DNA of 64,000 nt from Saccharomonospora piscinae (GTDB lineage: Bacteria; Actinomycetota; Actinomycetes; Mycobacteriales; Pseudonocardiaceae): positions 868,001 through 932,000 of the forward strand of contig NZ_VCEK01000001.1 in the NCBI RefSeq assembly GCF_005862235.1, read 5' to 3'. The translations under genes were made by a program, and so were the position numbers. Positions 3-11,668 of this stretch are shown piece by piece. Under the pieces are notes generated by a model. That model was not told the DNA's origin, did no database searches, and saw only the letters and a list, made by a program, of their open reading frames with translations. The stretch's first letter is position 1. Each line of letters opens with the position of its first letter.

Positions 3-812
3 TCACGTGTGTGCCTCCTCCCCCAGGTAGGCCCGCACCACGGCGGGGTTCGCGGCGATCTCGTCGGGGCCGCCCGTGGCGATGACCCGGCCGAAGTCGA
101 GGACGGTGATGCGGTCGCACACCGACATCACGAGATCCATGTGGTGATCGACCAGGACCACGGCCATCCGGTCGGACAGGCCGCGCACCAGCTCGCCCAG
201 CTCACCCATGTCGTCGTGGCCGAGCCCGCTGGCCGGCTCGTCGAGCAGCAGCAGCTCGGGCTCCGAGACCAGGGCCCTGGCGAGCGCCACCCGCTTGCGA
301 ATCGGGTAGGGCAGGCTGTCCGGATAGGCCGCGGCGCAGCCGTCCACGTCGAGGTCCCGCAACGCCCGCTGTGCTCTGTTCCGCACCGCGCGCTCGTCGG
401 CGACCGACCGGGGCAGCCCAAACAGCGCGGAGGCGAACCCGCTGCGGCGGAACCGGTCCGCGCCCACCATCACGTTCTCCAGCACGGTCAGTCCGCGGAA
501 CAGTCCGAGTCCCTGCAGAGTGCGCGCGATACCCCTGGCGGCCAGCTCGTGCGGTCGCGGCGGCGGCACCGGGTCACCGCGCCACCGCACCGACGGCGAC
601 TCGGCGGCCGTGAACCCGCAGCACACGTTGAACAGGGTGGTCTTGCCCGCGCCGTTGGGGCCGATGACCCCGTGAACCTCGTGGGGCCACGCGGCCAGCG
701 ACACGTCCTCCAGCGCCGTGAGTCCACCGAACCGCACGGTCACGCCGTCGATCTGGAACAGGGGGTGTCGCTCCCGCGGGGTGTCGCCGGAGCCGCCGCT
801 ACGTTGCCGCAC
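3..812 (-). CDS. Branched-chain amino acid-type ABC transporter ATPase (LivG-like)
   Basis: Cytoplasmic ATPase that would power uptake of a branched-chain amino acid or similar small substrate (HAAT family). Seen: Walker A GPNGAGKTTL, Walker B LLLLDEP, a D-loop-like SGLGHDD and the switch histidine in VLVDHH. The ABC signature is atypical: where LivG proteins have LPYGQ this one reads LPYPIRKR. I chose GTG at 812 (269 residues) because GAAAGGG lies 7 bases upstream; the frame stays open further upstream but starts in an arginine-rich, non-conserved stretch. The partner permease, LivF and binding-protein genes must lie beyond the left edge. Family confident, substrate unknown. Confidence 0.85.
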   Translation of the reverse strand: MRQRSGGSGDTPRERHPLFQIDGVTVRFGGLTALEDVSLAAWPHEVHGVIGPNGAGKTTLFNVCCGFTAAESPSVRWRGDPVPPPRPHELAARGIARTLQGLGLFRGLTVLENVMVGADRFRRSGFASALFGLPRSVADERAVRNRAQRALRDLDVDGCAAAYPDSLPYPIRKRVALARALVSEPELLLLDEPASGLGHDDMGELGELVRGLSDRMAVVLVDHHMDLVMSVCDRITVLDFGRVIATGGPDEIAANPAVVRAYLGEEAHT

Positions 813-900
813 GCTCGTGCCCTTTCGCCGCTGGCGTCGTCGCCACTGCCGCCGACCTCGGCCGGGGTGGGACAAGCTTCGTGCCGGACGCCCAACGACG

Positions 901-1006
901 GCCATAGGCGCAGCGCCCAAGATTTCGGGGTGCCGATGGGCTCAGCGCCCGGTGCCGGTGGACGAAGCGCCCCACGACATGCCAGGGTTACTGCGACGAC
1001 GACGGC
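901..1006. repeat. Direct repeat copy A (pairs with 9435-9539)
   Basis: About 92 bases here match 9435-9526 in the same orientation with five substitutions and one single-base indel. The match fades just past the point where copy B enters the start of the PucR-type gene, whose ATG is ACG here. The core can fold: GGCGC/GCGCC and CCCA/TGGG arms are retained, as is a GTGG/CCAC hairpin. This copy lies upstream of the ABC ATPase and downstream of the pirin gene. No coding potential or terminal inverted repeats seen. Confidence 0.85.
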
Positions 1007-1078
1007 GGCAGCGACGGCGCTGTGGCGCGCTGCGAGCGTTCCGACCGGGCGCGGCGCGGCAACATCCGCGCGGTGACC

Positions 1079-2074
1079 CTACTCGCGCGGGAGCAGCCTG
1101 GATTTCGGCAGCGGCGGCGCGGGCAACGGCCTCGGGTGGCCGGGCGGGAACGTGCCGAACAGGGCGGGCTTGCCCGCGTCTCGCGGATCGGCGGTGTCGA
1201 AGCCGAGTTCGGCCTGGTACCGGCGCCGGTACTCGACGATCTCGTCGTGGTCACGCCCGACGAAGTTCCACCACATCACGATCTGCTCTCCCAGCGGAAC
1301 GCCACCCAGCAGGAGCACGCGGGTCGGCGCGTCGCCCGCGGTGATGACCACCGTCTCGGCTCCGGCGGGGACGTAGGCCAGTGAACGGTGGTCGACGGCG
1401 ACCGAGTTCACGGTGACCTCCCCGCTCTCGGCGAGCACGGCGTGCTCGAAGTCGGCTCGGACGGTGAGTCGTGCTGAGCAGCCGGGCTCGATGAGCAGTT
1501 CGGCACCGAGCAGGTCGGGAGTCAGGGTCTCGACCGGGGAGACCGAACCGAGCAGCTCGCCGATGAACACGCGAGCCGTGACCCCGGACAGCGTCACCGG
1601 CTCGGGAACGTAGTGCGCGAACGCGTTGCCGGCGAAGCGCGTCGCGTCCGGCAGCGCGTACCAGAGCTGCACCCCGTGCAGGGTGCTCGTCCCGCTGTGG
1701 CTGATCTCCTGGTGGGAGATGCCACGGCCCGCGATCATCAGGTTGAGCTCTCCCGGCACGACCGAGGCCGTGTTGCCGCCGGAGTCGAGATGCTCGACGC
1801 GCCCGGTGAACAGCCAGGAGACCGTGGCGAGTCCCGTATGCGGGTGTCGCGGCACCAGCATCCCGCCGCTTGCCGAGACGTCGTCGGGACCGTAGTGATC
1901 CAGAAAGCACCACGCTCCCACCAACGACCGCCGCCGCTGCGGGAGCGTGCGGTACACGGTCATCGTCCGCGGACCGCCGAGCGGAACGAGGCGCGGCTCA
2001 AGGCGCTGCACGGCCGTACACGGCTGCCCGGACTCCAGAACCTCCAGATCGGGGCGTGCCTCGGCGTTGCTCAT
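1079..2074 (-). CDS. Pirin family protein
   Basis: Bicupin of the pirin family, 331 residues, cytoplasmic; relatives act as metal-dependent quercetinase-like enzymes or redox-sensing cofactors. Seen: the cupin-1 metal-site segment (PRHPHTGLATVSW, with HPH and a later GRGISHQE) in the N-terminal half, then a second cupin with a pirin_C-like end (GEQIVMWWNFVGR). The ATG at 2074 overlaps the TGA of the upstream AhpD-like gene (ATGA), so the two should be co-translated. Both are probably controlled by the divergent TetR operator at 2598. A longer open frame extends upstream, but it runs out of frame through the neighbour and is rejected. Natural substrate unknown. Confidence 0.9.
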   Translation of the reverse strand: MSNAEARPDLEVLESGQPCTAVQRLEPRLVPLGGPRTMTVYRTLPQRRRSLVGAWCFLDHYGPDDVSASGGMLVPRHPHTGLATVSWLFTGRVEHLDSGGNTASVVPGELNLMIAGRGISHQEISHSGTSTLHGVQLWYALPDATRFAGNAFAHYVPEPVTLSGVTARVFIGELLGSVSPVETLTPDLLGAELLIEPGCSARLTVRADFEHAVLAESGEVTVNSVAVDHRSLAYVPAGAETVVITAGDAPTRVLLLGGVPLGEQIVMWWNFVGRDHDEIVEYRRRYQAELGFDTADPRDAGKPALFGTFPPGHPRPLPAPPLPKSRLLPRE

Positions 2075-2544
2075 CGAACGAGTTTCCCTTCGGAATCGCG
2101 GGGACGCACCGGGTGCCCGCTGAGGATGGAGATCCGGTTGAAGGCATTGATCGTGACCGCCACCCATTCGGCCGCCACGAACGTCTCGTCGCCGAGCACG
2201 GATCGCGCGCCCGACAGATCGGCGGCGGACTCCTCGGTGAGGGGCAGGACCGTGGACGCTTCGGTCACCGCCAGTACCGCTCTTTCGCGCTCGTCGAACA
2301 CCCCGGTCTCCCGCCAGCCCGGCAGCAGGTCCAGTTTCTGTTGCCGGATCCCGGCCTGTCTCGCCTCGCGCGAATGCAGGTCCAGGCAGAACGCGCACCC
2401 GTTGAGCTGCGAGGCACGGACCTTGATGAGCTCGGACTCCTGCGCCGACAGCCCCCGCCGCGACGTGGCCTCCCGGATCGCCGCCGAGAACGCACTCGCG
2501 GCTCGCCATGCCTCGGGCATGACCTTGTCCAAGAACGGACTCAT
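2071..2544 (-). CDS. Carboxymuconolactone decarboxylase / AhpD-like protein
   Basis: 157-residue all-helical AhpD-fold protein. Seen: the redox-active motif NGCAFCLDLHSREAR (CxxC followed by His), typical of alkylhydroperoxidase-type members of this family, preceded by ELIKVRASQ. It probably reduces peroxides or serves as a thiol-dependent antioxidant. It is first in a two-gene unit with pirin and is transcribed away from the TetR gene at 2621. A plausible -10 (TATAGT, 2584-2589 on this strand) lies next to the TetR-type palindrome 2598-2612, so repression followed by release by an electrophile or oxidant is a reasonable inference. Confidence 0.88.
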   Translation of the reverse strand: MSPFLDKVMPEAWRAASAFSAAIREATSRRGLSAQESELIKVRASQLNGCAFCLDLHSREARQAGIRQQKLDLLPGWRETGVFDERERAVLAVTEASTVLPLTEESAADLSGARSVLGDETFVAAEWVAVTINAFNRISILSGHPVRPRDSEGKLVR

Positions 2545-2597
2545 GGGTCTCCTCTTCCGCCTCGACGGCGCTTGTTCCTACCAACTATAGGCACTTA

Positions 2598-2612
2598 CCT
2601 ACATGCTGTAGG
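2598..2612. promoter_or_regulatory. Perfect palindrome, probable TetR operator
   Basis: CCTACA-TGC-TGTAGG is a perfect 6-base inverted repeat midway between the divergent AhpD-like (start 2544) and TetR (start 2621) genes. It sits where the -35 of the leftward promoter would be and just ahead of the TetR start, so a bound dimer could repress both directions. Confidence 0.65.
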
Positions 2613-2620
2613 CTTGGCGC

Positions 2621-3226
2621 GTGCCCCGATCACACCTCTCCGCCGCGGACGTCGTCGATGCGGCTGCCGCGCTCGCCGACGACGTCGGGTTCGACGCCGT
2701 GTCGTTCTCGGCCGTGGCTCGATCGCTGGGAGTGCGAGCACCGAGCCTGTACTCGCACGTGCGCGATCTCGCGGCGCTTCGGGACGCGCTCGCCGAGTCG
2801 GCCCTGCGCGATCTCAGCGAACGGATCTCCCACGCGATCGCGGGACGATCCGGCGCGTCCGCACTGCGCGGCCTCGCGAACGCGCATCGAGCCCTGGCCA
2901 CCGAGTCCCCGGGCCGATGGCAGGCGCTCCAGCGGCGAGTCGGCGCGTCCGTGGTCGGCTCGGGCGCGGCCCGCGCCGTCGTCGAGCTGACGAGCGCGGT
3001 GCTGCGCGGCTACGCCCTTCCCGAGCGCGAGCACGTTCACGCCATCCGGCTGATCGGCAGTGCGATCAACGGCTTCATCACTCTCGAGTCCTCGGGAGGC
3101 TTCGACCACAGCGATCCAGCACCGGACGCCTCCTGGGAGCGGGCACTCGACGCCCTCGACTCGCTGCTGTGCGCGTGGCCGGCCGGGGCGGACGACAACA
3201 CCGGAACCAAGGGGGAGCACCAATGA
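2621..3226 (+). CDS. TetR family transcriptional regulator
   Basis: 201-residue dimeric repressor. Seen: an N-terminal TetR helix-turn-helix (VSFSAVARSLGVRAPSLYSHV, about residues 28-48) and a C-terminal ligand domain of the WHG type (ALRGYALPE... region with a conserved SAINGF). The start is GTG with no clear Shine-Dalgarno sequence, only 8 bases after the palindrome at 2598-2612, so the transcript may be short or leaderless. Its stop overlaps the ATG of the SGNH hydrolase (ATGA), giving a regulator-enzyme operon divergent from AhpD-like/pirin. Effector unknown. Confidence 0.9.
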   Translation: MPRSHLSAADVVDAAAALADDVGFDAVSFSAVARSLGVRAPSLYSHVRDLAALRDALAESALRDLSERISHAIAGRSGASALRGLANAHRALATESPGRWQALQRRVGASVVGSGAARAVVELTSAVLRGYALPEREHVHAIRLIGSAINGFITLESSGGFDHSDPAPDASWERALDALDSLLCAWPAGADDNTGTKGEHQ

Positions 3227-4374
3227 CGATCCGCACACCTCTCACGCCCGCACTGCTGCGTGGATTCGAGCACCTCGAAACAACGTCCCGCGGGCTGCGG
3301 CCCCATCGGCTTCCCGACTGGGTCACCGCTCGGTTCCCCGACCCGCAGCTGCTGTCCAGGGAGGTGCAGCCCTCCGGTGTGCGGGTGGCGATGCGCACCG
3401 AGGCGCGGCACATCGAACTCGTCACCCATCCCACTCACCTCGCCTACCGGGGGCTCGACCGTCCCCGAGGCAGCATCGACCTGATCGTGGACCACCAGCT
3501 CGTCGCGAGCGATCCGCTCACCGGAGGTGATGTGCTCGAGACGGATCTTGCCACCGGTGAGACCGCACTCGCCGGTGGCCCGCTCCACATCGCGCGCTTC
3601 GAGGGACTCGTGGCAGGCGAGAAGCTCGTGGAGCTGTGGCTGCCGCACAACGAGTCGATCGAGCTCGTCGAGCTCCGCACCGACGCGGCCGTGTCTCCCG
3701 CACCACTCGGCGCACGGCGCTGGCTGCACCACGGAAGCTCGATCAGTCAGGGCTCCAACGCCACCACACCGGCCCGGACCTGGCCGGCTCTCGCGGCCCG
3801 GATCGGACGGGTCGAACTGCGTAACCTCGGTTTCGGCGGCAGCGCGCTCGTCGACCCGTTCATGGCGCGGATCATCCGCGACACCCCGGCCGAGTTCATC
3901 AGCGTCAAGCTCGGCATCAACGTCGTCAACGCGGACAGCATGCGCCGTCGGGCGTTCGACCCCGCGGTACACGGTTTCCTCGACACCATCCGCGACGGCC
4001 ACCCCACGACACCGCTGCTGGTCGTCTCGCCCATTCACTGCGGCATCCACGAGCACACCCCGGGGCCCGGCATGTTCGACCCCGACAGCTTCGGCAACGG
4101 ACAGGTGCGGTTCGCGGCCTCCGGACGAGCGGGCGACACGGAGCAGGGGCGTCTCACCCTCACGGTCGTCCGCGACGCGCTCGCCGCCATCGTCGAGCAA
4201 CGGCAGGACCGAAACCTGCACTACCTCGACGGCACCACGCTCTACGGACGGGCCGACGCCGGCGATCACCCCCTTCCCGATGCGCTGCACCCCGATACCA
4301 CCACTCACGAGTTGATCGCCACGCGCTTCGCCGACCACGCATTCCGCGTCGGCGGTCCGTTCGCGACGGTGTGA
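3223..4374 (+). CDS. SGNH/GDSL-type hydrolase with SsfX3-like N-terminal domain
   Basis: 383-residue esterase or acyltransferase-like protein. Residues about 1-160 form a beta-rich N-terminal domain like the one preceding the catalytic domain in SsfX3-type proteins. The SGNH core follows: block I GSSISQG supplies Ser, then GFGGSALVD (Gly), LGINVVN (Asn) and DALHPD (Asp/His). The classical GDSL is replaced by GSSI, as in that subgroup. No signal peptide, so it acts in the cytoplasm. It is translationally coupled to the TetR regulator by ATGA. SsfX3 itself is an acyltransferase in tetracycline-type biosynthesis, but no such cluster is present, so the substrate remains unknown. Confidence 0.8.
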   Translation: MTIRTPLTPALLRGFEHLETTSRGLRPHRLPDWVTARFPDPQLLSREVQPSGVRVAMRTEARHIELVTHPTHLAYRGLDRPRGSIDLIVDHQLVASDPLTGGDVLETDLATGETALAGGPLHIARFEGLVAGEKLVELWLPHNESIELVELRTDAAVSPAPLGARRWLHHGSSISQGSNATTPARTWPALAARIGRVELRNLGFGGSALVDPFMARIIRDTPAEFISVKLGINVVNADSMRRRAFDPAVHGFLDTIRDGHPTTPLLVVSPIHCGIHEHTPGPGMFDPDSFGNGQVRFAASGRAGDTEQGRLTLTVVRDALAAIVEQRQDRNLHYLDGTTLYGRADAGDHPLPDALHPDTTTHELIATRFADHAFRVGGPFATV

Positions 4375-4409
4375 GAAGCCCGGGCGGGCCTCCCATGCCG
4401 TCCGGCAGC

Positions 4410-5702
<1,293 letters not shown>

Positions 5703-5718
<16 letters not shown>

Positions 5719-6416
5719 CCGACTGTCCTTTCACTGGGCTTCCGGTTCATGGTCGCTCCGGAAAGTGCCGCCGGAGCGGCGACGTTGGTGAGCGCGCGAA
5801 GCCGCGTGACGTCGACATCGGCTCCGAACGCGGGGGTGCCGGGCTCGAGCCGAGCGCCCGCCGCGAGGTCGCCGACGGTGAGCGGATCGAATCCGAGCGC
5901 ATCGGTCAGCTTCGCGACCACGGCGACGTCATCGGGCGAGTCGCCGGCGATCGCGATCGCCTTACGCTCGCCGGCGCCTGAGGGACGAGCCTCCTCTTCG
6001 AGGTCGTGATAGCCCATGTGGTTGAAGGCCTTCACGATCCGCGCGCCCGCCAGGAAACGCTGCACGATTTCGCTCGACGACGTACCGGGCGGCACGATCG
6101 TGTCGCGGGGACCGTCGATCTCCCACCAATGGTTCATCGCATCGACGACCAGCTTGTCTCGCAGCTCAGGAACCGGGAGAGCGCGATGCTTGCTGAGCGG
6201 GAGAGCGAGGATCACCACGTCCGCGGCGCCCGCGGCCTCGGCCGGCCACACGGCGGTCGCACCGGGGGTGAGCACCTCGGTCGTCAGCGCGATCTTGGCG
6301 GGGTCGCCGGACCCGGAGACGAAGACCCGATACCCCGCGGCGACCGCCAGGCGCGCCAGGACGGTACCGACTTTCCCCGCACCCAGGATTCCGATCGTGG
6401 TGATCGGCGCGTTCAT
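5703..6416 (-). CDS. F420/NADP(H) oxidoreductase-like Rossmann protein
   Basis: 237-residue Rossmann-fold protein. Seen: N-terminal dinucleotide motif [16 protein letters not shown], then VVILALPL and [11 protein letters not shown], the pattern of the NADP_oxred_F420 family that includes F420-dependent NADP reductases. The cofactor cannot be settled from sequence alone. It overlaps the upstream LLM oxidoreductase by ATGA (6413-6416) and the downstream GNAT by 16 bases. Pairing with an LLM enzyme suggests it supplies a reduced deazaflavin or nicotinamide cofactor to that enzyme; this is inferred from position. Confidence 0.82.
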
Positions 6417-7483
6417 CGGGTCGCTCCCGCGGTACCGGCGGGCTGTTCGGCCAGAAGCTCACGGACCCGGGGAATGACCTGAGTGCCGTACAGTTCGACC
6501 GAACGCAGCCGGGCCGAGGCGGCGACGGTGCCCGCAGCGGAGTAGATCATGTCGAACCGGCCCGCGTTCAGCACCCGGATGGCGTGGGCGATCTTGTTCG
6601 CGACCGTCTCAACAGAACCGACATAGAGCGATCCGTGCTCCACCTCGGCGTCGAACTCGTCCCGGCGAATCGGTGGCCAGCCGCGCAGCGCCCCGATCCG
6701 GTCGCGAATCTCTGAGTATCCCGGGTAGAACAGCGTCCTGGCTTCGTCATCGGTGGTGGCGACGAAGCCGGGCGAGTGCATCCCGACCGGCCGTGCGGTG
6801 GTACCGAATTTCTGGCTCGCCCGCCGGTACAAGTCCACGTAGGGGGCGAAGCGGTCAGGGGCTCCGCCGATGATGGCGAGCATGAGCCGGAACCCGTAGC
6901 GGGCGGTGCGGACCACCGACTGCGGCGACCCGCCGACTCCCACCCAGGTACTGAGGCGCCCCGAATCGGTCTTCGGGTACACGTCCGCCTCGTGCAGAGC
7001 GGCACGGGTGGTGCCCTCCCACGTGACCGGCGTTTCGTCCAGGAGCCGGTGGAACAGATCGATCTTTTCGTCGAACAGCACCTCGTAGTCTTTCAGGTCG
7101 TGCCCGAACAGCGGGAACGACTCCGTGAATGAACCCCGCCCGAGAATCACCTCGGCGCGGCCGTGGGAGAGTGCGTCGACAGTCGCGAACCGTTGGAAAA
7201 CCCGCACCGGATCGTCCGAGGACAGCACCGTCACCCCCGAGGCGAGCCGAATACGCTTCGTGGCGGTCGCGATTCCTGCCAGCACCGTTTCCGGACTGGA
7301 GATCGCGTACTCCGGCCGGTGGTGTTCGCCCAGCGCGACCACGTCGATGCCGACCTGATCCGCCAGGGTCGCCTCGGTGACCGCGGCGCGGATCGCCTGC
7401 GCGTGCGAGACGATCTCGCCCCTGTCGTCGCGGGGCCGGTCTCCGAAGCTGTCGACACCGAACTCGATCCGCGAGACATCCAT
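6413..7483 (-). CDS. LLM-class flavin-dependent oxidoreductase
   Basis: 356-residue bacterial-luciferase-like TIM barrel. Seen: an N-terminal strand [20 protein letters not shown], then [21 protein letters not shown] and [11 protein letters not shown], which are conserved in FMN- or F420-dependent monooxygenases. It is first in a three-gene overlapping operon with the reductase and GNAT genes. The long symmetrical operator 7567-7614 lies 84 bases upstream and is the likely control site. Substrate unknown; the neighbours (isochorismatase-like, haloperoxidase-like) suggest catabolism or detoxification of a small organic compound. Confidence 0.88.
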
Positions 7484-7566
7484 CGTGTGCTACTCCTTCA
7501 AGGCCAGGTCGTGCCACGGAGCGCCGGGGCGGTCGTCGGCGGAGGGCGATCGCGACTCTCCATCGT

Positions 7567-7614
7567 TTTGTTGACGTGTCAATCATGCCCGCTCGTGGTT
7601 GACACGTCAACAAA
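7567..7614. promoter_or_regulatory. Perfect 16-bp inverted repeat containing two TTGACNNGTCAA sites
   Basis: The arm at 7567-7582 ends in TTGACGTGTCAA and the arm at 7599-7614 begins with TTGACACGTCAA. The arms are exact reverse complements across a 16-base spacer, and each 12-base site is itself a 5+2+5 palindrome. This looks like a double operator for a dimeric TetR- or MarR-type regulator, placed upstream of the LLM operon. No TetR/MarR gene is adjacent. Confidence 0.7.
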
Positions 7615-7667
7615 TGCGGGTGGCGGAGCCGCGACGGCCCCGCCCCTCCCGCCGCGCGGATCCAGTG

Positions 7668-8330
7668 CTACACACCAGCACCATCAGCCGTAGGCGTGGC
7701 CAGAAGTTGCAGCTCCCAGGCGAGCGCGATGCCACTACCGCCCGCGTGCTCCTGGAGAACCGGCCCGAGCGCGGCAGCCGTCGACTCGCGGGCCCAGTCG
7801 CGTTGCCAATCACCGGAAACGGCCATCCAGGTGATGGGGACCACGCCTGCCTGCTCCATGCGACGCACCGCCATGTCGTGCGCCTCGGCACTGACTCCGC
7901 CGCTGGCGTCGGTGACGGCGAAGACGTCGTACCCCTCCCCCGCCGCCTGAATGGCGGGCATGGCGACGCAAATCTCGGTCCAGAGCCCGGCAAGGATCAG
8001 CTTCGTGCGCCCCGTCCGCTCCACGGCGTCGACGACCCGGCGGTCCTCCCAGGTGTTGATCAACGTGCGGTTGATCGGCTTCTGGTCCGGGAACACGTCT
8101 TGGAGGCCCTTGATGAGGTGGCCGCCCCGATCTTCGATCACCGTGGTCAGCACCGTGGGAACGTCGAAGACCTTCGCCAGCTTGGCCAGGCCGACGACGT
8201 TGTTGACAATCATGGTCGGTTCGTGGCTGTGCACGTTGGCGAACTGGAATGGCTGGTGGTCGATGAGCACCAGAACGCTCTGTTCGGGGGTGAGCAGCGC
8301 GTCGAGTCCGGCCTTCGCGGTGCGCGTCAC
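7668..8330 (-). CDS. Isochorismatase-like cysteine hydrolase (YcaC type)
   Basis: 220-residue cysteine hydrolase. Seen: LVLIDHQPFQ with the first catalytic Asp, TGRTKLILAGLWTEICVAM with the family Lys segment and the nucleophilic Cys, and a YcaC-like C-terminus. YcaC-type proteins are octameric hydrolases of unknown physiological substrate. GTG start at 8330, with AGGAGG 7 bases upstream. It is divergent from the LysR gene and so is the likely target of that regulator. It precedes the LLM operon, separated by 184 bases containing the double operator. Confidence 0.85.
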   Translation of the reverse strand: MTRTAKAGLDALLTPEQSVLVLIDHQPFQFANVHSHEPTMIVNNVVGLAKLAKVFDVPTVLTTVIEDRGGHLIKGLQDVFPDQKPINRTLINTWEDRRVVDAVERTGRTKLILAGLWTEICVAMPAIQAAGEGYDVFAVTDASGGVSAEAHDMAVRRMEQAGVVPITWMAVSGDWQRDWARESTAAALGPVLQEHAGGSGIALAWELQLLATPTADGAGV

Positions 8331-8430
8331 GATATTGCCTCCTGCGTGGTGGATTGGACCGTGGATGGCGGGAGTCGGATCGGAAAACGTCTCCCGTGGC
8401 CTGACCTGACGCTACGGCGGCCGTCTTCTG

Positions 8431-8445
8431 GAAGTCCAAGACTTC
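8431..8445. promoter_or_regulatory. Palindrome GAAGTC-CAA-GACTTC in the divergent region
   Basis: Perfect 6+3+6 inverted repeat between the isochorismatase-like and LysR genes, 15 bases before the second palindrome at 8460. Two such sites, in a recognition/activation arrangement, fit LysR regulation. Confidence 0.5.
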
Positions 8446-8459
8446 TCCGGGCGAGAGAC

Positions 8460-8476
8460 GATAGGATCCGCCTATC
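8460..8476. promoter_or_regulatory. LysR-type palindrome overlapping the LysR start
   Basis: GATAGG-ATCCG-CCTATC is a perfect 6-base inverted repeat and contains a T-N11-A motif (T8462 to A8474). Its right end coincides with the apparent ATC start of the LysR gene, suggesting autoregulation by steric block. Confidence 0.5.
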
Positions 8477-9403
8477 GATATCAGCCCCCGTGTACTGCGC
8501 TATTTCCTGGCCGTAGCCGAGGAGCTTCATTTCGGCAGGGCGGCCATGCGTCTCTATATCTCCCAGCCGTCGCTGAGTCATCAGATCCGCAAACTCGAGC
8601 AGACCCTCGAAACCCCGCTGTTCGTACGGTCGAGCCGTCGGGTACAGCTCACCGCCGCGGGCCGGACGCTCGCCCACGAGGCGCCGCGAGCACTGGCCGC
8701 GCTGGAGCGAGCCACGCGGCTGACCCGCTTGGCCGGATCGGGCATCGCGACGACGATCCGGCTGGGCTACACCCCGGTCGCGAACTTCGGCACGCTCACG
8801 GCCCTACTGAATGCTCTCCAGGAGGACCACCCCGGTGTCACGGTCGACGCTCGAGAGGTTTTCAGCGCCGAGATCCCCGAACGGCTCCGTGCGGGGGAAC
8901 TGGACATCGGTCTCGCCCTCTCACCGCGGCCCCTGGACGGCATCGGTGGCGAGATTCTGCGCCAGGAGCCCGTTTCCGCGCTACTGAGCACCCGGCATCG
9001 CCTCGCCACCGGACCGGCCATCCCGGTGAGAGCACTGCGCGACGCGACGCTGCTGCTGTTTCCCCGCAAGCTCGCCCCGGCGTACTACGACGGCATCGTC
9101 GCCGCGTGCCACGAAGCGGGCTTCTCACCCGAGATCCGCGCGTTCGAGGACCCTCCGGTGAACGCCATGCTCGCCCGGCTCTCCGGAGGACGTGAGATCG
9201 GCCTGGCCCCGACCGCGTTCGCCGAGCACGCCGCGAAGGCCAGTACCAGCGTCGTCCGCCGCGCTGTCGTCGAGCCGCCGATCATGGCGGAACTCTCCGT
9301 TCTGTGGCCCGCGGACGATCCGTCACCAGCAGTCGCGGGCGTCCTCGCCACCGCCCGACGATGCGCGCAGCGCAACGGATGGCTGTCCGGGCCCTCACCG
9401 TGA
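8474..9403 (+). CDS. LysR family regulator with apparent ATC start codon
   Basis: 309 residues from 8474. Seen: a full LysR winged helix (LRYFLAVAEELHFGRAAM then YISQPSLSHQIRKLE, about residues 8-40) and a C-terminal substrate-binding domain. An in-frame TAG at 8462 leaves only GAT CCG CCT ATC GAT ATC before the conserved domain. There is no in-frame ATG, GTG or TTG until 8546, which would delete half of the helix-turn-helix. ATC at 8474 with AGGA 7 bases upstream restores the usual Met-Asp-N-term spacing. Either ATC initiates, a sequencing error hides an ATG, or the start has decayed. Divergent from the isochorismatase-like gene. Confidence 0.75.
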   Translation: MDISPRVLRYFLAVAEELHFGRAAMRLYISQPSLSHQIRKLEQTLETPLFVRSSRRVQLTAAGRTLAHEAPRALAALERATRLTRLAGSGIATTIRLGYTPVANFGTLTALLNALQEDHPGVTVDAREVFSAEIPERLRAGELDIGLALSPRPLDGIGGEILRQEPVSALLSTRHRLATGPAIPVRALRDATLLLFPRKLAPAYYDGIVAACHEAGFSPEIRAFEDPPVNAMLARLSGGREIGLAPTAFAEHAAKASTSVVRRAVVEPPIMAELSVLWPADDPSPAVAGVLATARRCAQRNGWLSGPSP

Positions 9404-9434
9404 TCTCTTCGGGCGCCGACATCCGTCGCGGGGA

Positions 9435-9539
9435 GCCATGGGCGCAGCGCCCAGGATTTCGGGGTGCCGATGGGCTCTGCGCCCGGTGACGGTGGACGAA
9501 GCGCCCACGACATGCCAGGGTCACTGAGATGACGACGGC
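9435..9539. repeat. Direct repeat copy B (pairs with 901-1006)
   Basis: Second copy of the about 92-base repeat, 8534 bases from copy A and in the same orientation. Here the fold is better: GGGCGCAG (9440-9447) pairs with CTGCGCCC (9476-9483), enclosing CCCA/TGGG. The repeat ends in the first codons of the PucR-type gene at 9529, so in this copy it forms the gene's promoter/leader. Confidence 0.85.
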
Positions 9540-10779
9540 ACCGGGCGATCCGGCCGGCGGGGAGGTGTCCTCGCCGGCGAGGGCAGCGCTGCGGCTGCTC
9601 AGCCTGGCCCTCATGGAGGAACTGGACACCCTCGCCGATCGCCTGACGCTGCTGGTGCTGCGCGCCGAACCATCGTACGCGGAGCTCGGGGTGTCGGCGC
9701 CCGACGCGCTGCGCGAGAACCTCAGGGCGAATCTGCAGCGGGGCATCCAGTCGCTCGGCGGGCTGGTCCCGGCCGGCGTGGACCCGCAGGACACCTCCCG
9801 CGAGACGGGCCGCCTGCGGGCTCGCGAAGGGGTTCCGCTGGAGGCGGTGCTGCGGGCCTACCGGCTCGGCGGCCAGGTGATCTGGGAGGCGCTGCTGTCG
9901 GCGTCGCGGGAGCGGTTCCGGGGCCGCTACGACCGCGAGCTGCTCGCCACCGCGGGCCACGTGTGGCGCGCCATCGACGCCAGTTCCGCGGCGCTCGTGG
10001 ACGACTACCGGCTGGAGGAGTCGCGGCTGCGCAGCCAGGAACTGAGCAAGCGTCACGCGTTCCTCAACGCGCTGCTCGACGGGCAGGGCGCGGACGCGGC
10101 GCTCGCCCAGGAGGCCGCGACCGTGCTGGGGCTTCCCACGTGCGGGCCGATGCTGTGCGTCGTGGCACCCGTCGACACCGCCACCGACGAGCCGCTGCGT
10201 TCCCCGCGAGACGCGCTCGCCACACACGGGATCGTGTCCTCGTGGCACGTGCGGCCCTCCGACATCGTGGGTCTCGTCGCGCTGGGCGACCGGTCCCCCG
10301 CCGACGCGCTCGCCGCGCTGCGCCCCTCGGTCACGGGCCGGGCGGGAGCCTCGCCGGTGATCACTTCACTGGCGCAGGTGGCGGACGCCTACACGCTGGC
10401 GCGGACGGCGGCGAGGACGCTGTGCGGCGCTGGAGTGGCGTTCCTCGACGATCACCTGCCCGAGGCACTGCTCGTCGGCAGCCCCGAACTGACGGGCAGG
10501 CTCGTGCGGGTGGCGTTCGGCGGACTGCTCGACCTCCCGGCGCACGAGCGCGAGACGCTGTTCTCGACGCTGGAGGCGGTGATCGACAGCGGCGGCTCGC
10601 CGACGCGGGCCGCGCAGCGGCTCTACTGCCATCGCAACACCGTGATCTACCGCCTTCAGCGGGTCGAGGCGGTCACCGGCCGCTCGCCGTCGAAGGCGCG
10701 CGACCGCCTGCTGCTCAACCTCGGCCTGCTCGCACTGCGGCGCTCCGGCGACGGCACGGGCACGGCGCTCAGTCGCTAA
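9529..10779 (+). CDS. PucR/CdaR-type helix-turn-helix regulator
   Basis: 416-residue regulator. Residues about 1-190 form a helical sensor-like region (RsbT co-antagonist/RsbRD-like, with LEAVLRAYRLGGQVIWEAL). The centre resembles a degenerate GGDEF-like domain. The C-terminus carries the PucR helix-turn-helix (SPTRAAQRLYCHRNTVIYRL, then GRSPSKARDRLLL). It lies immediately downstream of repeat B and may originally have been divergent from the ABC ATPase at the left edge. Its 3' end overlaps the manganese catalase stop by 11 bases in convergent orientation. Target genes unknown. Confidence 0.85.
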   Translation: MTTAPGDPAGGEVSSPARAALRLLSLALMEELDTLADRLTLLVLRAEPSYAELGVSAPDALRENLRANLQRGIQSLGGLVPAGVDPQDTSRETGRLRAREGVPLEAVLRAYRLGGQVIWEALLSASRERFRGRYDRELLATAGHVWRAIDASSAALVDDYRLEESRLRSQELSKRHAFLNALLDGQGADAALAQEAATVLGLPTCGPMLCVVAPVDTATDEPLRSPRDALATHGIVSSWHVRPSDIVGLVALGDRSPADALAALRPSVTGRAGASPVITSLAQVADAYTLARTAARTLCGAGVAFLDDHLPEALLVGSPELTGRLVRVAFGGLLDLPAHERETLFSTLEAVIDSGGSPTRAAQRLYCHRNTVIYRLQRVEAVTGRSPSKARDRLLLNLGLLALRRSGDGTGTALSR

Positions 10780-11668
10780 ACTCCTCCTTCAACCGGCCCA
10801 CCATGCCCTTGCCACCGGTCAGCTTCGGATCGGCGGGCGCGCCCTTGGAGCCGTCGTAGCTGGCGAACAGCTTCGGGTCCGGCGCCGGAGCCTCGCCCGG
10901 GCCACCCAGCGGCCTGGGTTCGGTGACGATGCCCATCGAGTGGGAACCGTCCGGTGCGGTGCCGTTGGCCCACCGGCCGCGCGCCGACTCGTCGCCCTCG
11001 GACAGGTTCCACAGGCTCGTGGCGTGGTCGGTGTGTTCCTCGTCCAGCAGCGCGTTCGGTGCGATGGTGCCCTCGATGCCGTCGGCCTTGAGTTCCTCGA
11101 TCGCCGCGAGCCACAGGTTCTGGTGGTAGGTGTCGCGCGCGAGGTTGAACTTCAACATGTCCTTCACGCCGGGGTCGTCGGTCATGTTGTAGAGGCGCGC
11201 GGTCTGCAGGCGTCCCTGCGCCTCCGCGGCCACGTTGGCACGGAAGTCGGCGAGCAGGTTGCCGCTGGCGATGATGTAGCGGCCGTTCCAGGGCACGCCC
11301 TGGCTGTCGTTCGGCATCGCCCCGCCGCCGCCCACGATCGCCTGCTGCGGGTCCATCCCACCCAGCACCGCCGCCATCACCGGGTCCTGCACGGCCCGCG
11401 TGGTCTCCGTGGCCGGGGCGCCCTCCAGCAGCCGCGCCACCATGGTCGCGAGCATCTCGACGTGCCCGATCTCCTCGGTGGCGATGTCCATGATGAGGTC
11501 CTTGTACTTGCCCTCCATGCGGCAGTTCCAGCCCTGGAACAGGTACTGCATGGTGACCGTCATCTCGCCCCACGCACCGCCGATCAGTTCCTGGAGCTTG
11601 CGCGCGTAGACCGGGTCGGGCTGCTCGGGCTTCGCTTCGAACTGGAGGTGCTTGGTGTGAGTGAACAT
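10769..11668 (-). CDS. Manganese catalase
   Basis: 299-residue di-manganese catalase that disproportionates hydrogen peroxide in the cytoplasm. Seen: the four-helix ferritin-like core with Glu/His ligand segments (GEMTVTMQYLFQGW, ATEEIGHVEMLATM, EAQGRLQTARLYNMTDDPG, then ARDTYHQNLW) and the Gly/Pro-rich extended tail of this family. ATG at 11668 is supported by GGGAG 4 bases upstream and by the conserved N-terminus; the open frame extends further upstream but is arginine-rich noise. Monocistronic by context: 156 bases to the divergent acyltransferase gene and a convergent neighbour at its 3' end. Confidence 0.93.
   Translation of the reverse strand: MFTHTKHLQFEAKPEQPDPVYARKLQELIGGAWGEMTVTMQYLFQGWNCRMEGKYKDLIMDIATEEIGHVEMLATMVARLLEGAPATETTRAVQDPVMAAVLGGMDPQQAIVGGGGAMPNDSQGVPWNGRYIIASGNLLADFRANVAAEAQGRLQTARLYNMTDDPGVKDMLKFNLARDTYHQNLWLAAIEELKADGIEGTIAPNALLDEEHTDHATSLWNLSEGDESARGRWANGTAPDGSHSMGIVTEPRPLGGPGEAPAPDPKLFASYDGSKGAPADPKLTGGKGMVGRLKEEFSD

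Follow-up and report, generated by a model that had tools for sequence, protein, structure and literature searches.

Comparative evidence for a gene module inserted between livG and pucR, with duplication of part of their intergenic region, in Saccharomonospora piscinae

Genomic islands at transfer RNA (tRNA) genes carry long direct repeats, and the duplication restores the gene that the island interrupts. In Helicobacter pylori, Nobusato et al. in 2000 reportedly gave the name "insertion with long target duplication" to a further kind of event. Their work is also referenced in PMC3031569, PMC2630997 and PMC11708052, and PMC3046158 yielded nothing on target duplication. Their finding is cited in PMC1643837, PMC2749054, PMC3154945 and PMC4978471, and in the passages of the literature that deal with it, the H. 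pylori cases consist of a block that is present in one genome, missing in another and flanked by long direct repeats derived from the target; they are often tied to restriction-modification genes, and strains of one species are compared. The relevant portion of PMC2749054 describes restriction-modification genes at such sites as lower in guanine-plus-cytosine (GC) content and concludes that they were transferred horizontally, and that of PMC11708052 notes a proposal by authors that restriction-modification enzymes attack the target and offers pre-existing breaks as an alternative. In Arabidopsis, according to the corresponding part of PMC2869330, moved genes are flanked by host-derived direct repeats, often at the orthologous target site; the authors there treat target duplication as one explanation and regard recombination of a circle after its excision as the simpler one. 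Here we analyze a 64,000-nucleotide stretch of the Saccharomonospora piscinae genome (contig NZ_VCEK01000001.1, positions 868,001 to 932,000; hereafter the window, in whose numbering positions are given), in which a module of ten genes lies between two long direct repeats and separates livG from pucR. Comparison with relatives indicates that the module was inserted and that ~95 bp at the pucR end of the intergenic region, together with ~10 bp of pucR, were duplicated in the process, leaving one copy on each side.

The locus adds a clear case to a kind of insertion that is known but has seldom been described; what sets it apart is the nature of the duplicated target, a divergent promoter shared by two genes. 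As in the H. pylori cases, the insert is missing from the orthologous site of relatives, the repeat is derived from the target and is single where there is no insert, and its length of 105/106 bp far exceeds that of a transposon target duplication. It differs from those cases in its metabolic cargo, its actinobacterial host, the use of different species for comparison and the duplication of a divergent promoter, and it lacks a link to restriction-modification; no restriction-modification gene is present among the ten predicted module proteins. We take it that such a link does not define insertion with long target duplication. The transposed genes of Arabidopsis show the same flanking-repeat pattern and differ in being plant genes. 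Unlike the genomic islands at tRNA genes, this module has no integrase among its ten predicted proteins, the window has no tRNA and the repeat is a promoter region. Among the titles and abstract openings searched, we found no published report of this locus, and none that concerns both Saccharomonospora and PucR.

The repeat pair and the ancestral livG-pucR locus

The elements that define the locus are as follows.

3 to 812, reverse strand: livG-like branched-chain amino-acid ABC transporter ATPase (Pfam ABC_tran, BCA_ABC_TP_C), with a GTG start near 812 by eye
901 to 1006: direct repeat copy A, consisting of ancestral livG-pucR intergenic sequence from the side next to pucR, followed by the first codons of pucR
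1007 to 9434: inserted module of 8,428 bp, between copies A and B
9435 to 9539: direct repeat copy B, the pucR side of the predicted promoter plus the first pucR codons with their ATG
9529 to 10779, forward strand: PucR-family regulator (Pfam HTH_30, GGDEF_2), right partner of the ancestral pair

Alignment of the two copies, which have the same orientation, reveals 8 differences (7 substitutions and one 1-base gap), corresponding to 93.3% identity over 105 columns. A sequence-only reading of the window had described repeats of ~92 bp and ~93% identity at 901 and 9435; its positions and identity stand, and its length was too short. It had also reported that copy B enters the first codons of pucR and that copy A carries the ATG changed to ACG, and we do find the pucR ATG at 9529 inside copy B and ACG at 996-998 in copy A. 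The edges of the repeat are sharp, with similarity ending at both borders of each copy, and a comparison of the edges gave no support to copy A running on into a decayed pucR or to copy B extending towards livG. In the whole genome (4.9 Mb in 11 contigs), the only full-length matches to the repeat are copies A and B themselves (E 8e-50 and 9e-38), and the next-best match is 39 bases long (E 0.005). The best of the matches listed for 60 relatives spans 61 bases at 77% identity (E 3e-5) and sits at the pucR start of its own genome, G004. These results confirm that the repeat pair is real and beyond chance. They also bear on whether the repeat is a dispersed element, which would have counted against the sequence-only reading; with only two copies in the genome, it is not. 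A candidate inner direct repeat (1052-1076 and 9410-9434) had a score of 30 that was reached by 20 of 5,000 shuffles, yet we discount it because the same score is attained in the actual sequence of the window by 27 of 1,739 31-mers and 3 of 749 72-mers, and because it was one of several comparisons.

In the window, livG and pucR are 8.7 kb apart. Protein searches of 12 genomes of the genus, that of S. piscinae included, detected PucR in 10 at E <= 1e-50 (none in G002 and G008) and LivG in 9 at E <= 1e-60 (none in G002, G008 and G010), so that 3 of the 11 other genomes are without one or both genes at these cut-offs. In all 8 others the two genes are divergent neighbors with gaps of 196-316 bp, as extrapolated from the protein matches. 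The livG orthologues beside pucR within the genus are 70-82% identical to that of S. piscinae, and the pucR orthologues are 76-81% identical in seven genomes, 72% in G010 and, for a partial one, 77% in G007. We extended the comparison to 79 named loci from genera including Saccharomonospora, Prauserella, Amycolatopsis, Actinophytocola, Rhodococcus and Nocardioides. A divergent livG-like ATPase lies within 12 kb of pucR in 66 of them, always with a gap of 90-302 bp as extrapolated from the protein matches; in 65 of these loci the ATPase is at least 49% identical, and in the other, L158, only 27%. Eleven loci have pucR with no detected divergent livG, three of them with less than 500 bp of upstream sequence, and the remaining two have no pucR match. 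Three of the 79 duplicate three of the eight genus genomes, leaving 71 distinct loci with the pair, and none of these has an insertion between livG and pucR. The ancestral locus, as this comparison shows, comprised livG, one shared intergenic region and pucR, and the compact pair of the relatives therefore makes the module a derived insertion. The sequence-only reading had proposed that the module splits an ancestral divergent pair and had predicted adjacent genes in relatives without it; the adjacency in 8 of 8 genus genomes and 66 of 79 named loci, together with the two-copy repeat, supports that proposal, which a module present in every relative would have refuted.

We next consider which part of the locus was duplicated, using an alignment of the intergenic regions of 17 relatives (the 8 of the genus and 9 from other genera). 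From livG through copy A, the window sequence amounts to an entire ancestral-type intergenic region, and copy B corresponds to a second version of its pucR-proximal part and the pucR start. Each relative has a single orthologous stretch at this place; five genus relatives have ~100-130 bp extra between conserved blocks, and the other twelve have the short form. Given that both copies align to the intergenic region of the relatives, the repeat evidently derives from the target and not from the insert. The relatives are 53.8-69.5% identical to copy A or B, and the two copies are 93.3% alike; the copies therefore split after the lineage had separated from all aligned relatives. Fourfold-site divergence of pucR, uncorrected, is 0.42-0.49 to six same-genus genomes. 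This suggests that the duplication occurred well after those species had split, although the repeat is under constraint, and we assign no date. At position 906 all 17 relatives match copy A, at positions 989 and 997 all 17 match copy B, and the other five differences are mixed. These three sites are only suggestive of each copy drifting where it serves no gene, with copy A staying ancestral-like on the livG side and copy B on the pucR side.

Each copy contains two inverted-repeat elements of the form GGC...GCGCCC, at 905-920 and 937-952 in copy A and at 9439-9454 and 9471-9486 in copy B, and by eye on the alignment these are largely kept in the relatives. We consider them putative operators for the PucR-family regulator. 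A promoter scan of 800-9600 found no sigma-70-like site at the repeats (the sole site is at 7582-7610), so our statements about the promoter draw only on conservation.

Two observations concern the surroundings of pucR. A manganese catalase gene (Pfam Mn_catalase, 10769-11665) lies tail to tail with it, and G010 keeps this neighbor at 91% protein identity. In G010 (L173:4673-7165), pucR stands behind a same-strand gene at 6017-7165, by eye a relative of cysteine ligase/MshC, with no livG in the 8 kb upstream, which represents a second, different rearrangement at the site.

Content and origin of the module

The ten predicted genes of the module are as follows.

1079 to 2074, reverse strand: pirin (Pfam PF02678, PF05726), 79-80% identical in L169 and L174
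2071 to 2544, reverse strand: AhpD/CMD-family protein (Pfam PF02627, NCBIfam ahpD_dom)
2621 to 3226, forward strand: TetR-family regulator, divergent from ahpD-pirin (Pfam PF00440, PF13305)
3223 to 4374, forward strand: SGNH/GDSL hydrolase with an SsfX3-like N-terminal domain (Pfam PF14606, PF13472, PF21181)
4410 to 5252, reverse strand: alpha/beta hydrolase (Pfam PF00561), putatively haloperoxidase-like by the sequence-only reading
5329 to 5718, reverse strand: GNAT-type acetyltransferase (Pfam PF14542)
5703 to 6416, reverse strand: F420-dependent NADP oxidoreductase-like protein (Pfam PF03807; NCBIfam npdG below cut-off)
6413 to 7483, reverse strand: LLM-class monooxygenase of the Atu2307/SP_0267 family (NCBIfam TIGR03858, 482.8 bits, cut-off 462.25)
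7668 to 8330, reverse strand: isochorismatase-fold hydrolase, YcaC-like (Pfam PF00857; NCBIfam YcaC below cut-off)
8477 to 9403, forward strand: LysR-family regulator, divergent from the isochorismatase gene (Pfam PF00126, PF03466); exact start unsettled

Between the outermost of these genes and the repeats lie 72 and 31 bp. Judged from the protein families, the module probably contributes redox or electrophile chemistry, controlled by TetR and LysR regulators that it carries itself.

The GC content of the module is 68.5%, compared with a mean of 71.4% in 544 kb of the genome (11%, in five blocks, made up of the window and 24 stretches of 20 kb), and only 1 of 487 overlapping 8,325-bp segments of that background is as low or lower. 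GC content at third codon positions is 0.79-0.88 in nine of the ten genes, 0.915 in livG and 0.918 in pucR; the alpha/beta hydrolase gene, at 0.915, equals livG. The lower GC that had been noted from the sequence thus holds for the module as a whole. When the module DNA was searched against 390 genomes of the family, that of S. piscinae included, 342 matched some part of it at E <= 1e-30, and among the matches listed none apart from that in its own genome runs beyond ~1.8 kb. Within the genus, 5 of the 11 other genomes have one match each, those of G003, G004 and G009 being in the SGNH part.

Homologous clusters elsewhere in the family cover different portions of the module. Loci L169 and L174 carry the acetyltransferase, ahpD, pirin, LLM and oxidoreductase genes as a cluster, L170 carries the same five (pirin and LLM matching in pieces) together with the isochorismatase gene, and L168 carries lysR, isochorismatase, LLM and oxidoreductase genes at 78-89% protein identity. 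DNA similarity to these clusters ends near the ends of pirin and lysR. The module looks to have been assembled from, or to be related to, at least two such clusters. Its low GC and the presence of cluster homologues in other genera point to a foreign origin. A plasmid source was not found: with positions 1450-9403 (7,954 bp) as the query, 386 plasmid records share some part of it, coverage stays below 80% in every record, and the highest coverage at any place among the matches listed is 21%.

The gap between the LLM and isochorismatase genes contains, at 7568-7613, two TTGACGTGTCAA-like sites in inverted order, recognized by eye, which overlap the sole sigma-70-like site of the region. Across the stretch 7484-7686, L168 has just 24 bp between the corresponding blocks. 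The paired sites may represent a regulator site gained at the joining of clusters.

In agreement with what had been seen by sequence inspection, family profile scans detected no integrase, transposase or other recombinase among the ten predicted module proteins, smaller reading frames not being scanned. Terminal inverted repeats that appeared plausible by eye were rejected, since their score of 22 compares with a shuffle mean of 19.7 and 24% of 2,000 shuffles do as well. There is no tRNA gene in the window; the sole one of the surrounding 144-kb block lies outside it. The genome has two Ku genes (G000 C4:731717-732265 and C6:75054-75566; 183 and 111 bits, cut-off 25).

A second insertion of this kind was not seen in the 544 kb. 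Apart from copies A and B, this sequence contains 12 direct pairs that reach 60 bp and 85% identity with their members within 25 kb of each other. The 8 that were inspected have in common a tandem unit of ~21 bp that is dispersed in the genome and unrelated to the repeat of the locus, the remaining 4 arise from the same places by a shift of register, and tRNA genes do not account for any of these pairs. Examples of the tandem repeat are found at L182:6899-6970, L183:11587-11658, L185:12188-12262, L193:11546-11616 and L196:8304-8382. Its 16-base core occurs 192 times in the S. piscinae genome, 32 times in G002, 20 times in G005, once in G010 and in none of the 8 other genus genomes; the core read backwards, as a control, is absent from all 12.

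Routes of insertion

We favor, with some reserve, the explanation that a foreign module was inserted with long target duplication, likely by a non-homologous route. In the lineage of this genome, foreign DNA of 8.4 kb with two self-regulated gene groups entered the livG-pucR region. By one possible route, staggered nicks ~105 bp apart would have been filled in and the ends joined to the foreign DNA by Ku-type end joining. By another, a stalled fork would have copied foreign DNA and resumed ~105 bp upstream, through a template switch. The insertion would have been tolerable, with both genes keeping a control region, because the duplicated stretch holds the operator-like inverted repeats and the pucR start. 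Copy A has since lost its redundant start codon for pucR.

Several points weigh against this explanation. End joining, template switch and integration of a circle are not separated by the data, and little can be concluded from the presence of Ku, which is widespread in actinobacteria. Neither a donor nor the donor edges were found, which leaves the joints unreadable for microhomology, and the joints themselves (1006/1007 and 9434/9435) are read from a draft assembly in 11 contigs. All module-free genomes compared belong to other species. Moreover, the commoner letter among the relatives is that of copy A at 920, 944, 955 and 970 (994 is unresolved). If that letter is ancestral, copy B departs at all four, and one-sided decay fits poorly because 955 and 970 belong to the half nearer pucR.

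A rival is single-crossover (Campbell-type) integration, in which a circle carrying the module and the promoter stretch of livG/pucR, such as one that came from a different strain having this arrangement, recombines with the chromosomal copy. Such integration yields exactly the observed structure, the 6.7% by which the copies diverge could be allelic, and differences in both halves of the repeat would suit it. It requires that the module and the promoter had already been joined in another genome, and no such joined locus is present among the matches listed from the 390 family genomes or in the plasmid records. Because the donor must already carry the promoter, we infer that end joining and template switch, taken together, rank above circle integration, to which we give only a minor share of the probability.

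Less likely still is that flank homologous recombination with a close relative imported a locus that already had the insertion. Homologous exchange of this type is common in bacteria, but it merely shifts the insertion event to another genome, and no genome of the genus examined has an insertion here. In addition, pucR is about equally distant from the other Saccharomonospora, with nucleotide identities of 76.5-79.2% to five genomes and 68.6% to G007.

A site-specific integrative element, with the repeat as its attachment-site (att) core and an integrase that was lost or acts from elsewhere, is improbable. Long direct repeats that restore an interrupted gene do resemble those of elements that restore a tRNA end. 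Against this, the ten module proteins include no recombinase, the 71 distinct loci include no second insertion, the repeat is a conserved promoter region of which each of 17 relatives has one at this site, and the outer genes stand 72 and 31 bp away from it. Finally, an ancestral module lost from the relatives by recombination between the repeats would yield their arrangement, but it can be set aside, since the compact pair in many actinobacterial genera would demand very many parallel losses and copies A and B resemble each other more closely than they resemble any of the 17 relatives.

A divergent promoter region as duplicated target

If long target duplication is the correct explanation, each gene would have received a private regulatory copy, and the cargo would have gained room with neither gene broken. 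It is a tentative and rather doubtful suggestion that insertion into divergent pairs is favored where the duplicated target covers operator and promoter together. Were this to hold generally, duplicating a promoter would provide recombinase-free entry of operons into conserved divergent pairs in high-GC, Ku-bearing actinobacteria. The locus presents a clean case, polarized by comparison, of foreign genes entering a deeply conserved divergent pair with no visible recombinase. It would extend a phenomenon that the H. pylori literature, in the portions considered here, links to restriction-modification to metabolic cargo in an actinobacterium, and it points to a route by which cargo may enter core gene neighborhoods without damage, both neighbors keeping their control region.

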